From an uncultured Flavobacteriales bacterium (GTDB taxonomy: Bacteria > Bacteroidota > Bacteroidia > CAIKAF01): a DNA stretch of 64,000 nt. A program made the position numbers and the translations under genes. Of the stretch, positions 14,824 through 62,046 are shown piece after piece. Below the pieces are notes generated by a model that worked only from the letters and a program-made list of their open reading frames with translations, searched no databases and was not told the origin of the DNA. Each line of letters begins with the position of its first letter. Positions within the stretch are counted from its first letter, which is position 1. Location of the stretch: NCBI GenBank assembly GCA_903825395.1, contig CAIKAF010000019.1, forward strand, positions 62,001-126,000, given 5' to 3'.

Positions 14824-14967
14824 GGGGAGGGTACCGGGCTTTCACCGCTGGTCCGCGGTCCAATGGCTTTGCCCCAGCGGGGTTACGGTGGCTCCCAAGG
14901 TCGCCTCCGCCCCTCGCGGGGCAGAAGCCATTGTTCCTTGCGGGCCAGCTGGTTCAATCCCGCCCGC
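14824..14967 (+). repeat. Structured intergenic element, copy B
   Basis: 144 bp, preceded by GTTTTTTG. The terminal stem is GGGAGGG with CCCGCCC (one mismatch). P2 is GCTGG/CCAGC, a full set of compensatory changes relative to GGTAG/CTACC in copies D and E. The variable stem starts GGTCCAATGGC and ends GCCATTGTTCC. It is the only copy that lies between divergent genes (lepA and elbB) rather than just 3' of a gene on its own strand. The rest of the 14968-15157 gap holds no recognisable feature. Confidence 0.9.
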
Positions 14968-34405: not shown

Positions 34406-34548
34406 GCGGGCGGGATTGAACAAGGTTGCCCGCAAAGCCGAAAGGGTATGGGCCCGCGAGCGGCGCAGGCGACTTTAGGAGCCCGCGTAACGCCGCTGGG
34501 ACCAACCCTTTTGGCTGCGGACTACCTGTGAAAGCCCGGTACCCGCCC
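34406..34548 (-). repeat. Structured intergenic element, copy C
   Basis: 143 bp on the minus strand, 10 bp beyond the stop of the sugar-transferase gene. The terminal stem is GGGCGGG/CCCGCCC. P2 is GGTAG/CAACC with one mismatch. The variable stem starts AGCCAAAAGGG and ends CCCTTTCGGCT. The inner hairpin differs from the other copies by a paired change (CGCGGGC with GCCTGCG), and AGCGGCG/CGCCGCT extends it by 7 bp. Confidence 0.9.
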
Positions 34549-55883: not shown

Positions 55884-56026
55884 GCGGCAGGGATTGAGCC
55901 GGGTAGCCCGTACCGTTTCAGTGGCTGTGCTGCGCGCGGCGCGGAGGCGACCTTGGGAGCCCACGCAAGCCCGCTGCAGCACGCCACTGAACGGGCGGAC
56001 TACCGGTGAAAGCCCGTTTGCCGCCC
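55884..56026 (-). repeat. Structured intergenic element, copy D
   Basis: 143 bp on the minus strand, 23 bp beyond the pyrB stop. The terminal stem is GCGGCA with TGCCGC, a paired change relative to GCGGG/CCCGC in copies C and E. P2 is a 10-bp helix, GGTAGTCCGC with GCGGGCTACC wobble-paired at one position. The variable stem starts CCGTTCAGTGGC and ends GCCACTGAAACGG, with two bulged A residues on the 3' arm. GTTCAATCC of the other copies reads GCTCAATCC here. Confidence 0.9.
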
Positions 56027-56049
56027 TCAAAAACAAAGGGTAAAAAGGT

Positions 56050-57021
56050 CTAATTGAAATGTATTCCGGTGTCGGCAGTGGATTGTTGCCCCAGCAAATA
56101 CAGCACAGCCATTCGTACGGCAACCCCGTGCTGGACTTGGTCTAAAATGATTGAATTTGCGCTGTCGGCCAGGCGGCCATCCAGCTCAACACCCCGGTTT
56201 ACCGGACCGGGATGCAAAATTATCGGTTTATGCTGCAGCCGTTCCCAGCGCTCCATGTTCAGACCGAACAGGCGATGGTACTCGTATGCGCTTGGAAAAT
56301 GCTGAACGTTTAGCCGTTCTTCTTGAATGCGAAGCATGTTGACGGCATCGACCCGCTGTAGCGTTTGATCCAGGGAATGGCTAATCCGAACGCCCAATTT
56401 CTCAATGCCTTTGGGAAGCAGACTTGGCGGAGCACACAGCTCCACGTGTACCCCCATTTTTTGAAGCAAAAGCATATTTGACAGGGCCACTCGGGAGTGT
56501 AAAATATCGCCCACCAGCGCTACCTTTTTTCCGGCGAGTGGGCCTAGGGATTGCTGCAGCGAAAAGGCATCCAGCAGCGCTTGGGTGGGATGTTCATGCG
56601 TTCCATCGCCGGCGTTGATGATGCGTGCCTGAGCAGAATGCTTGAATCGGGGTAAGTGTTTTGCAAGGAAGATGCCCGCTCCAGGACTGGAATGCCGGAG
56701 TACAATCATATCCACCTTCATAGCCAGAATATTGTTGACGGTATCCAACAGGGTTTCTCCTTTGCTCAAGCTGGAACCGGAGGCCGAGAAGTTAATTACA
56801 TCGGCCGACAGTCGTTTTTCGGCCAATTCAAACGACAAGCGGGTGCGGGTTGAATTTTCGAAAAACAGATTGGCAATGGTTTTATCGCGCAGCGAAGGGA
56901 CTTTTTTGATGGGCCTTTGCAGCACATTATAAAATTCTGCCGAGGTTGACATCAGGAGCTCGATGTCCGCATCTGTTAAGGCTTTAATGCCGAGCAGGTG
57001 ATGGCAGCTTAGCTGGGGCAT
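56050..57021 (-). CDS. pyrB: Aspartate carbamoyltransferase, catalytic subunit
   Basis: 323 residues from ATG 57021; TTG 57027 would start two codons earlier. First committed step of pyrimidine synthesis. The carbamoyl-phosphate motif is FFENSTRTRLSFE, the HxxQ motif is EHPTQALLDAF, and HPGPVNRGVELDG is the aspartate-site segment. It starts 2 bp after pyrR, its regulator. No regulatory chain pyrI is adjacent. Confidence 0.96.
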   Translation of the reverse strand: MPQLSCHHLLGIKALTDADIELLMSTSAEFYNVLQRPIKKVPSLRDKTIANLFFENSTRTRLSFELAEKRLSADVINFSASGSSLSKGETLLDTVNNILAMKVDMIVLRHSSPGAGIFLAKHLPRFKHSAQARIINAGDGTHEHPTQALLDAFSLQQSLGPLAGKKVALVGDILHSRVALSNMLLLQKMGVHVELCAPPSLLPKGIEKLGVRISHSLDQTLQRVDAVNMLRIQEERLNVQHFPSAYEYHRLFGLNMERWERLQHKPIILHPGPVNRGVELDGRLADSANSIILDQVQHGVAVRMAVLYLLGQQSTADTGIHFN

Positions 57022-57023
57022 AG

Positions 57024-57575
57024 TCAAGATTTATTTTCAATCCAAATCGCATCATTTCCATGGTGTTCAGCCCAATGTACTCGTACTTTTTGTCCTTCAA
57101 AAGCATCGACCGACCAGCCGTAGAAATCGGGATGAATGGGCAATTGACGGGCAAACCTTCGTTCCACCAATACCAGCAGCTTAATCCATTCCGGCCGGCC
57201 GAAGGTATGTACGGCATCTAAGGCTGCCCGAATGGTTCGGCCGGTAAATAACACATCATCTACCAACACCACGCGTCGGTTTTCCAAGGAGAAACTAAGT
57301 TGGGTTGCCTCAGGAATCAGCACTTTAGATTGGTTGAAGTCGTCTCGGTAAAAGGTAGGATCCAACACTCCAAAATCAAGGCTAGCCGTTGGCATATGGG
57401 ATTTCCATGCGGCTTGTAGCCGCTGAGCCAGATAAACACCACGGGGTTGAATACCGAGCAAGACCAAAGGGGATTGGTCTTGGTGCATTTCTGCCAGCAT
57501 CAACGATAGCCGATGAATACGCTGACGCATGGCTTCTGCATGCGCGTAGGGTTCGGAAGTTGATGCGGTGTTCAT
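57024..57575 (-). CDS. pyrR: PyrR bifunctional regulator / uracil phosphoribosyltransferase
   Basis: 183 residues. The PRPP-binding motif is VVLVDDVLFTGRTIRAAL; LLGIQPRGVYLAQRL is upstream and LDFGVLDPTFYRDD follows. In Bacillus PyrR binds pyr mRNA in the presence of UMP and promotes termination. Here it sits directly before pyrB and 46 bp after rpsA, with a terminator-like hairpin in that gap and no obvious promoter, so it may be expressed by readthrough or from a promoter inside rpsA. Confidence 0.94.
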   Translation of the reverse strand: MNTASTSEPYAHAEAMRQRIHRLSLMLAEMHQDQSPLVLLGIQPRGVYLAQRLQAAWKSHMPTASLDFGVLDPTFYRDDFNQSKVLIPEATQLSFSLENRRVVLVDDVLFTGRTIRAALDAVHTFGRPEWIKLLVLVERRFARQLPIHPDFYGWSVDAFEGQKVRVHWAEHHGNDAIWIENKS

Positions 57576-59606: not shown

Positions 59607-59712
59607 GGCAAATCTTCGTCAAATCCAAAGAAATTCAAGCTTTTATACTTCAAATCCGGCCCTTTATTTTTATTTTTTTTAACAAAATGAGGTCTCTCCC
59701 AAAATATTGTGC

Positions 59713-59720
59713 TAAGTTTG
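59713..59720 (+). promoter_or_regulatory. Promoter (-7 box TAAGTTTG) of the methyltransferase gene
   Basis: Exact TAnnTTTG, 20 bp before the ATG at 59741. Confidence 0.7.
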
Positions 59721-59740
59721 TCCGCTTTAAAAAACCTACT

Positions 59741-60940
59741 ATGAGCAAATCTCCATTAGATTTCATTGTTGCAAAAACACCTTCTGCAAGCCGAAAATAC
59801 GTTTCCGGCAAAAAAATTCCTTTTTCTGAGTTCATTCACGATTACGCCAATGGCGACGTAGATATCGAGGGCGATTTCATTGAATTTATGAAATGCCGGA
59901 ATGAGGTCTTCGATTACCGATTGACCTGGAAGCACATCAAGTTTTTCTTCACCCGCATGATTCCTGAAGTAGCCATCCACTCTAAGAGTCAGGATGAGCG
60001 CATTGTTCGCGACCACTACGACCGCGGCAATGACTTCTTCTCTTCTTTCCTAGGTCCACGTATGATTTATACTTCTGGATTTTGGAATGATGTTGCCAAT
60101 GAAACCCTTGAGCAAGCTCAAGACCGCAAAATGACAATGGTTTGCGACAAACTGCTCATGAAACCCGGAAATAAGCATTTGGATATCGGTTGCGGTTGGG
60201 GAACGTTGGTGGCTTATGCTGCCAAGTACTACGGAACCGATTCTACCGGTATCACTTTGGCTCAAGACGGTACCGATCATGGTAACGCTCAAATTGCCCG
60301 TCATGGTGTGGCTGATCGGGCGCGCATCCTACGCATGGATTACCGCGACATGATTACCCCAGGTAAAAACAATGAAATGTTCAATCACATTACTTGTTTG
60401 GAAATGGGTGAACACGTTGGAATCCGTAAATTCGGCCGGTTTATCAAAAACATTTATGATAAACTCGACGACGACGGAACCTTTTACCTTCAACAAGCCG
60501 GTCTGCGGGCCAATCCCGGCCTACTAGCCCGTGGAGAACACTGGGAAGACTTGGTGTGGGGCTTATTCATGAATGAATTTATTTTCAGTGGAGCCGATGC
60601 TTCTACTCCCTTGGCTTTCTTGGTTCAAACCTTGCAAGACGCCAATTTCGAGGTACAAAGCGTCGAAAACATCGGAATTCACTACTCGCATACAATGACC
60701 TGCTGGTACCACAATTGGGAAGCCAATAAAGAGTACATTTTGCAGCATTATGGAGAATGGTGGTACCGCACTTGGAGGGTATTCTTGTATTGGTCTGTAA
60801 TCATTGCAAGCCAAGGCTCTTCTACCTGCTGGAGCATCATCGCGCACAAAAATTACAACCGAGTAGATCGCAATCGGTACATCGGTCGCGCAAATCTGGG
60901 CGAGCGCATGGAAATGGGCAACGTTCGTATTTTCGAATAA
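59741..60940 (+). CDS. Cyclopropane-synthase-family SAM methyltransferase resembling sphingolipid C9-methyltransferase
   Basis: 399 residues from ATG 59741; an upstream ATG at 59687 precedes the promoter box and is unlikely. SAM motif I is HLDIGCGWGTLVAYAAKYYG, preceded by DHYDRGNDFFSSFLGPRMIYTSGFW. GPRMIYTSG, the ETLEQAQDRK segment and the C-terminal membrane stretch with ASQGSSTCW match, from memory, fungal sphingolipid C9-methyltransferases better than ordinary Cfa. Bacteroidota make sphingolipids, so methylation of a ceramide base is plausible. A general lipid methyltransferase is the alternative. An intrinsic terminator follows. Confidence 0.78.
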   Translation: MSKSPLDFIVAKTPSASRKYVSGKKIPFSEFIHDYANGDVDIEGDFIEFMKCRNEVFDYRLTWKHIKFFFTRMIPEVAIHSKSQDERIVRDHYDRGNDFFSSFLGPRMIYTSGFWNDVANETLEQAQDRKMTMVCDKLLMKPGNKHLDIGCGWGTLVAYAAKYYGTDSTGITLAQDGTDHGNAQIARHGVADRARILRMDYRDMITPGKNNEMFNHITCLEMGEHVGIRKFGRFIKNIYDKLDDDGTFYLQQAGLRANPGLLARGEHWEDLVWGLFMNEFIFSGADASTPLAFLVQTLQDANFEVQSVENIGIHYSHTMTCWYHNWEANKEYILQHYGEWWYRTWRVFLYWSVIIASQGSSTCWSIIAHKNYNRVDRNRYIGRANLGERMEMGNVRIFE

Positions 60941-61002: not shown

Positions 61003-61146
61003 GGGCGGGTAACGGGCTTTCACCGGTAGGCCGCAGTTGGCAGGCAGGGTGGCAGCGGGCTGCGGTGGCTCCCAAGGTCGCCTCCTCGCCGCGCGCCACC
61101 AGCTGCTGCCAACTTGGCGGGCTACCGTGTTCAATCCCGCCCGCAA
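61003..61146 (+). repeat. Structured intergenic element, copy E
   Basis: 144 bp, preceded by TTTTTTTT. The terminal stem is GGGCGGG/CCCGCCC. P2 is GGTAG/CTACC. The variable stem starts AGTTGGCAG and ends CTGCCAACT. It lies beyond the terminator of the upstream gene, so it is not simply a 3' UTR. The bases after its end (GCAAT, CCTCATGACC) match those after copy A, suggesting that the element is about 15 bp longer. Confidence 0.9.
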
Positions 61147-61197: not shown

Positions 61198-62046
61198 CTA
61201 GATGGACTGCTCTGTTTTAAATTTTTTAAACCATGTAATTTGCCTTCGCGCGTATTGACGGGTATGGGCGTTGATTTGTTGCTCAATTTCCTGCTCACTT
61301 GTTTCGGTTTTTGAATACCATTCTTGATATCCAACCGTTTGTAGTACAGGCATATTGGCGAATGGAGCAAGGCGAAGTGCCTCCTCCTTCAGCCCTTGCT
61401 TCAACATCTCCGTCGTTCTTACCTCAATTCGATGATGCAAGGCCGCCCGCTCAGGTTCTAATATTTCTAGGTTCAATTTGGCCTTGAACAGCATTTCTTT
61501 TTTTGAGTGGCCCGATGTTCTAAATTCGGACCAAGGTCGCCCAACTGTTCGCCAAATTTCAAGCGCCCGCCTCAACCGAGCTGGATTTTGTTGGTCCACT
61601 TCCTTGAAATAAATGGGATCAATTCTAGATACTTCATTTTGCAATTCGGCCAAAGGCAATTGGTTTACTTCAGCTCGAATTGAATTTGGAATGTTCGGCA
61701 TGGGGTCAAGTCCATACAACAAAGCCTGCAGGTAAAAGCCAGATCCGCCAACCAAGACGGCCGATCCATGGGTGTCAAGAATCTGCTGCAATACCGGTCT
61801 GGCTTGTTCGGCAAAGGTTGCAGCATCGAGTGGCGCATGAATGGAATGCGTACCAAGAAAATGGTGTGGAATCCCTTGCCATGAATCGGGTAGGGGCCGC
61901 GCTGTTCCAATGTGCATTTCCTGGTAAAATTGCCTGGAATCAAAAGAAATGATTTCGGTGTTCAGTTGCCCTGCCAACTCAATTGCTTTGTCGGTTTTGC
62001 CAGATGCCGTAGGCCCTCCTACTACAAAAAGTTCAGGAAGTTTCAT
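61198..62046 (-). CDS. miaA: tRNA dimethylallyltransferase
   Basis: 282 residues. It adds a dimethylallyl group to A37 of tRNAs reading UNN codons. The P-loop is GGPTASGKTDKA, IISFDSRQFYQEMHIGTARP is the substrate motif, and the C-terminal region has TVGYQEW and the RQYARRQITWFKKF end. It is a little shorter than the usual 300 residues. It overlaps cca by ATGA, so the two tRNA-processing genes are coupled. Confidence 0.96.
   Translation of the reverse strand: MKLPELFVVGGPTASGKTDKAIELAGQLNTEIISFDSRQFYQEMHIGTARPLPDSWQGIPHHFLGTHSIHAPLDAATFAEQARPVLQQILDTHGSAVLVGGSGFYLQALLYGLDPMPNIPNSIRAEVNQLPLAELQNEVSRIDPIYFKEVDQQNPARLRRALEIWRTVGRPWSEFRTSGHSKKEMLFKAKLNLEILEPERAALHHRIEVRTTEMLKQGLKEEALRLAPFANMPVLQTVGYQEWYSKTETSEQEIEQQINAHTRQYARRQITWFKKFKTEQSI

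Follow-up and report, generated by a model that had tools for sequence, protein, structure and literature searches.

How can the two arms of a stem differ completely between the copies of a repeat, and yet remain complementary within each copy? This question is raised by five related elements in a window of 64,000 nucleotides from an uncultured Flavobacteriales bacterium. A preliminary description of the window had reported such arms, with two possible causes: selection on structure alone, or a mechanism that rewrites both arms together, for instance by templated copying of one arm. The arm sequences quoted there are present in the window, when read on the strand on which GCGGAC appears as GTCCGC. 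The stem is real, but it is not an isolated feature, since the element as a whole, 143 nt in length, forms one long hairpin.

The five copies are located at positions 964–1104 (copy A, minus strand; 147.0 bits, E 2.2e-32), 14825–14967 (B, minus; 133.5 bits, E 3.8e-29), 34406–34548 (C, plus; 141.6 bits, E 4.4e-31), 55884–56026 (D, plus; 133.5 bits, E 3.8e-29) and 61003–61144 (E, minus; 119.2 bits, E 1e-25). The scores are those of R2, a covariance model for which relatives supplied the sequences; the five copies match it with E-values of 1e-25 to 1e-32. Copy D, a long imperfect hairpin with a fold energy of about -91 kcal/mol (RNAfold), has orthologs in the genomes G003 (139/143 identical) and G005. 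Copy C has an ortholog in G001 (133/144), and copy E, which lies between the convergent ORFs 59687–60940 (plus) and 61198–62046 (minus), has orthologs in G003, G005 and G001.

Folding of the copies reveals a common anatomy of about 55 base pairs, with interruptions at fixed places. At the base, a foot (GCGGCAGGG/GCCGCCC) is followed by the conserved internal loop ATTGA/GAAAG. Above this loop stand helix P2 (GGTAG/CTACC, with variants) and helix P3 (CCCGC/GCGGAC), then the variable inner stem, a stretch with two conserved bulges and finally the apical core GGCGACCTTGGGAGCC. Within the core, two G-A juxtapositions lie inside a GGC/GCC stem together with a CTTG loop, the closing letters of which covary to TTTA (pair 68–71 is CG in 27 and UA in 18 cases). 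As an RNA tetraloop, CUUG is stable and contains an internal C-G pair. The G-A steps would read as T-C on the minus strand, and thus the CTTG loop and the G-A motifs suit the plus strand. The outer module conserves GGATTGA/GAAAGCC.

In copy D the 5′ outer module (55884–55912, plus strand) comprises the foot GCGGCAGGG, the internal loop GGATTGA, P2 (GCCGGGTAG) and P3 (CCCG). It occupies conserved alignment columns and stays a unit when the inner part of its relatives is replaced. It is followed by the left variable arm CCGTTTCAGTGGC (55913–55925, plus), which pairs with the right variable arm GCCACTGAACGG (55983–55994, plus) leaving one bulged T; the columns of both arms covary. Between them, the apical core (55946–55961, plus) falls in conserved columns. 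The 3′ outer module (55995–56026, plus) contains GCGGAC (P3), CTACCGG (P2), the conserved GAAAGCCCG and the foot GCCGCCC, and matches GCGGACTACCGGTGAAAGCCCG with 0 mismatches, against a chance expectation of 0.00. Read on the minus strand, positions 55890–55901 belong to a conserved part that in many copies has the sequence GGTTCAATCCC, reminiscent of the T-loop (B box) of a tRNA. As the window was found to contain no tRNA gene, this likeness is probably a coincidence.

Changes on both sides of the stem keep the arms of each copy complementary. An alignment of 46 copies without gaps, drawn from three genomes, has 93.7% of its cells paired, compared with 79.4% when the letters of the 3′ side are shuffled, and sliding the partner by 1–3 columns reduces the pairing from 93.7% to 32–51%. 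Changes on both sides are observed for 34 of the 55 pairs, amounting to 311 cells; the shuffle means are 23.8 and 85.2, respectively, and none of 500 shuffles reaches either 34 pairs or 311 cells. Chance is thus excluded, and the observation that the arms differ between copies while remaining complementary within each is confirmed. The stem does not extend into the flanks, where flank-flank pairing (6.66) is no better than with shuffled flank partners (6.27).

The five copies belong to a large family. With up to 3 mismatches the core GGCGACCTTGGGAGCC has 240 matches in the 2.6-Mb genome, compared with 20 for the reversed control, and by the core pattern the genome of origin (G000) holds about 200–220 copies. 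With up to 2 mismatches, 195 matches are found in G000, 196 in G001, 156 in G003 and 171 in G005, all of the same genus, and only 6 in G002 and 9 in G004. Covariance models detect divergent copies in the latter two genomes (58–63) and in G014, from another genus (52), together with one or two matches each in G009, G008 and G012. Several of the divergent copies fold alike, with recognisable GGATGGA/GACAGCC and GCCCG/AGGAC parts. The divergent copies in the sister species G002 and G004 (L155:2032, L158:7979, L258:7228) carry other conserved letters, GGACCGAACGG ... GGGAGGGCCGG. The same copies occur in the Bacteroidota metagenome-assembled genomes ErkenSummer bin-6618, K_DeepCast_35m_m2_130 and casp15-mb.160, the names of which suggest lakes or brackish water. 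At least four species carry the family at high copy number. A pattern search of 395 genomes of the phylum gave matches in the genome of origin only; of the stray pattern matches, R2 supports L231 (on a contig labelled Psychroflexus) and L258, but not L220 and L241. In Rfam 15 no family matches the window above its gathering score, the best match in the region (E=1.0) being below gathering.

A comparison of orthologous loci changes the meaning of the variability. Copies were matched between genomes by their flanks, at loci that were sampled non-randomly from the part of each genome that was read. Between G000 and G003 (flanks ∼95% identical) 44 pairs show an element identity of 0.92–1.00, and none has been replaced. 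Among 34 pairs between G001 and G005 (flanks ∼84%), 25 have identities of 0.88–0.99 and 9 of 0.63–0.83, and between G000 and G005 (flanks ∼75%) 5 pairs lie at 0.92–0.96 and 12 at 0.66–0.83. Such a gap between two identity groups is predicted by replacement, unlike by slow drift. In the G000/G003 pairs, none of which was left out, the element accumulated 0.017 substitutions per site, versus 0.086 and 0.064 in the adjoining 100 bp. For G001/G005 the corresponding values are 0.055, a rate lowered by leaving out the strongly diverged (replaced) pairs, versus 0.269 and 0.159. The element thus evolves 3–5 times slower than the adjoining 100 bp, with indels almost absent, and the inner stem (0.058 substitutions per site) is about as well conserved as the outer part (0.050). 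At a given locus the element is therefore conserved above its surroundings, and the stem that had been called hypervariable deserves that name among paralogs only; among orthologs the same stem is well conserved. Position and orientation are kept as well, at all 31 flank-matched loci in G003 and at 13 of 15 in G005. The gene order around the copies is conserved, and nearly all copies stand at orthologous sites across 5–25% divergence.

The orthologous loci reveal two ways in which both arms have changed. At 16 of 69 conserved ortholog pairs, a total of 25 double changes from one Watson-Crick pair to another is observed, with 1–4 per locus, compared with about 1–2 that we estimate for independent hits in G001/G005. 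In the same conserved ortholog pairs there are 81 pair-breaking single changes and 38 single changes between Watson-Crick and G.U pairs. The second way is the exchange of the entire inner hairpin, including both arms (∼80 nt), as a module between loci. One example is L138:1050 in G005, in which 32 nt at the start and 34 nt at the end equal its G001 ortholog L175:9644 except for one letter (outer identity 0.98), including a rare P2 helix (AGTGCTTAG/CTAAGCCTGA). Its middle 80 nt are 53% identical to the ortholog and 99% identical to another G005 copy, L137:12708. Similarly, L143:3911 of G005 has an identity to its ortholog of 0.98 in the outer and 0.56 in the inner part, with a best paralog at 0.99 for the latter. 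The inner part of copy D itself is 96% identical to another copy in G000 and 59% to its own ortholog in G005; G001 has no element at this locus. The boundaries of the swaps fall in helix P3 (CCCG/GCGGAC), which is common to nearly all copies. The reverse pattern, with a changed outer and a retained inner part, is seen in 5 milder cases in G001/G005, and the tracts are therefore not always the inner ones.

Ectopic gene conversion accounts for the replacements of the inner module; as part of each genome was read, some of the donors would not have been seen. As a trigger for conversion, breakage of the hairpin tip by SbcCD was considered and dropped as unsupported: SbcD is expected to cut such hairpins, and among 10 genomes of the bacterial family none has an SbcD match above the cut-off. 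Of the two causes originally proposed, selection on structure is favoured by the covariation, by the slow change of the element relative to its flanks and by the double changes at orthologous loci. Joint rewriting does occur, as replacement of the whole inner hairpin from a paralog, but the joint changes can be explained without one arm serving as template for the other. A simultaneous change of both arms between orthologs, which had been suggested as a sign of rewriting, is found in the replacements at greater divergence; among the 44 pairs with 95% flank identity no such replacement is seen. Unpaired single substitutions accumulating freely in one arm, which would have spoken against maintained pairing, are found in part: there are 81 pair-breaking singles, yet the rate of change stays well below that of the flanks.

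The copies have a preferred position and orientation with respect to genes. An antisense ORF has its stop codon within 60 nt of the 3′ end of the element in 138 of 261 copies, most often at 10–12 nt, and a sense stop lies on the 5′ side in 58 of 259 copies; the 3′ and 5′ distances differ with p=2.5e-8. At copy D this gene is the ORF at 56050–57027 (minus strand), which from its protein sequence we take to be pyrB, encoding an aspartate carbamoyltransferase-like protein. Its stop codon abuts the 3′ end of copy D across a spacer of 23 nt (56027–56049, minus). This spacer and its equivalents are T-rich when read along the gene and A-rich on the plus strand, where the frequency of A is 0.55–0.65 in the 9 nt beyond the element. 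Gaps between convergent genes are preferred (40/105 versus 37/213, p=8e-5), and where two elements stand 41–140 nt apart, they are arranged 5′ to 5′ in 12 of 13 cases, as if each of the two convergent genes owned a copy; several of these pairs are mutual orthologs. The close pairs are found at L007, L011, L037, L039 and L116 in G000, at L073, L084 and L200 in G003 and at L163, L192, L214 and L234 in G005. In these close pairs the two elements differ from one another; the copies of one tandem pair (L160:7760, 7962) are 99% identical. At L162:16863–16940 in G005, the element-free ortholog of L101:6411, a different stem-loop (TTTGAAC...GTTCAAA) directly follows the stop codon, as though it had taken the place of the element. 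A promoter of its own at the 5′ end of the element (Bacteroidota TAnnTTTG) was considered and rejected, with a weak enrichment in G000 only and none in G005 or G001.

The single changes between orthologs point to one of the strands. Read on the plus strand, changes between Watson-Crick and G.U pairs outnumber those between Watson-Crick and A-C by 38 to 15 (p=0.002), and by 21 to 8 in a strict subset (p=0.024). Transitions in the flanks show no such bias (728:698). The asymmetry, as weak to moderate evidence, suggests that the plus strand probably folds on its own, either as RNA or as single-stranded DNA. The call uses the ortholog changes, since the asymmetry is unclear from the arm alignment and from static counts in three length classes (GU 68, AC 59). 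Of the 2371 standard pairs in alignment A2 only 33 are G.U, fewer than we would expect for an RNA that evolves via G.U intermediates; together with the symmetric static counts this makes the inference of the strand weak. The mRNA of the neighbouring gene would carry the minus strand, whereas the asymmetry favours the plus strand.

Among the other explanations, template switching within an inverted repeat (quasipalindrome correction) would copy one arm onto the other in the absence of selection. It is a known mutation process that creates and maintains stems with multibase compensatory changes (PMC8794818), and the numbers between paralogs, with 311 doubly changed cells versus ∼20 cells in one-sided G.U states, would agree with it. 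As in the RNA stems described there, both arms change together; those stems, however, copy the opposite arm, whereas here the joint changes are scattered pairwise or derived from another copy. Close orthologs display 1–4 doubles per locus rather than tracts, 81 pair-breaking singles remain uncorrected, fixed mismatches such as ATTGA/GAAAG have not been mended to perfect pairs, and the wholesale replacements have a source in a paralog. Template switching is accordingly considered quite unlikely. An ordinary role as strong transcription terminators would fit hairpins near stop codons that are enriched between convergent genes, but is improbable given that neither strand has a T-run behind the hairpin, the plus strand being A-rich there, that no terminator-like site is found at copy D, and that conserved internal loops over 143 nt go beyond the needs of a terminator. 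A retroelement or SINE-like origin via a resident reverse transcriptase was rejected, PF00078 not being detected in G000, G001, G003 and G005.

Mobility requires a comparison with known repeats. REPINs are extragenic hairpins, present in many copies, in which the ends are conserved and the stems show compensatory changes (PMC3116915). The present family of hundreds of extragenic palindromic copies shares all of these features with REPIN and REP/BIME elements, and could be a non-autonomous element of this type, mobilised by a Y1 (RAYT) transposase that recognises the conserved parts as hairpins, with copies that are alike only on account of their youth. Matches to PF01797 (Y1_Tnp; E≤0.001) indeed occur in G000 (3) and G003 (2, weak), but there are 0 in G001 and G005, two of the four high-copy genomes, despite their 196 and 171 core matches, while G002 and G004, with few core matches, have 3 and 4. 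One Y1-transposase-like ORF (L127, G003:C206, 1327–1893) lies amid short repeats translating as ETHNRASL / TIVRLY and looks like an ordinary RAYT with short REPs of its own, distinct from the 143-nt element. Unlike in REPINs, 143 nt fold here into one hairpin with fixed internal loops, the inner module is swapped, and nearly every copy stays at its orthologous site over 5–25% divergence. Target duplications and polymorphic empty sites are marks of MITEs; at the loci that seem to lack the element (that of D in G001 and that of L101:6411 in G005) we recognised no target duplication, but the two or three element-free sites are too diverged to read one. A mobile element of this kind is thus unlikely. 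Integron attC sites, folded single-stranded DNA recombination sites, are likewise imperfect palindromes with freely varying arms, retained pairing and bulges and a fixed orientation after a stop codon, and according to PMC2727003 it is their bottom strand that folds, which would correspond to the asymmetry for the plus strand, opposite to the abutting gene. The 5′ to 5′ close pairs also fit an attC-like site. Nevertheless, such a site is highly improbable: no integron integrase (TIGR02249) exceeds the cut-off in 8 genomes (best weaker match 111.6 bits versus 265), cassette arrays are absent, the copies being single, far apart and beside core genes in conserved order, and no match to both R boxes is seen by eye. 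The bcr1–bcr18 and ERIC-type repeats (PMC2267715, PMC3446304), dispersed structured intergenic repeats of about 100–170 nt, resemble the element, as compared by description, in length, dispersal, intergenic location and common predicted structure. They belong to other phyla, and the present family has a higher copy number, with conservation locus by locus and exchange of modules. In summary, the family is matched in no catalogue searched. It is most REPIN-like in form and somewhat attC-like in organisation, but lacks a defining feature of each, in the case of a RAYT-dependent REPIN as far as PF01797 shows.

The explanation that we favour, with a probability of roughly 60%, is that of an old, host-retained family of 143-nt gene-end hairpins, selected for the shape of the plus strand, with inner modules that are swapped between loci. 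The plus strand alone, whether RNA or single-stranded DNA, would be the functional form, with the 3′ end of the hairpin pointing at the stop codon of an antisense gene. Starting before the species separated, each locus would have drifted through compensatory changes, and occasionally ectopic gene conversion would have swapped the inner module, altering both arms in one step with retention of the pairing. Such drift per locus, combined with occasional conversion, would explain why the arms differ between copies. The shared P3 helix may serve as the boundary of the swaps, keeping the modules compatible. The position of the copies suggests a role at gene ends; our guess is a 3′-end hairpin that protects, processes or insulates the transcripts of neighbouring genes.

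A broader reading is offered tentatively. The family may represent lineage-wide structured single-strand elements with a fixed orientation at gene ends, under selection at each locus, with an inner module passed on by gene conversion and with divergent forms in other genera; it is possibly a new family of regulatory RNAs or a folded-strand recombination site. Each genome offers about 200 natural replicates of a single hairpin, retained in shape but nearly unconstrained in sequence, and at least four species carry them. Two questions thereby become testable: in what proportion the joint changes of a stem arise through successive point mutations or through a single event, and what anchors intergenic hairpins of high copy number to fixed positions at gene ends. 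The chimeric copies provide a clean route for the single event, in which ectopic conversion of the inner part changes both arms and no unpaired intermediate is passed.
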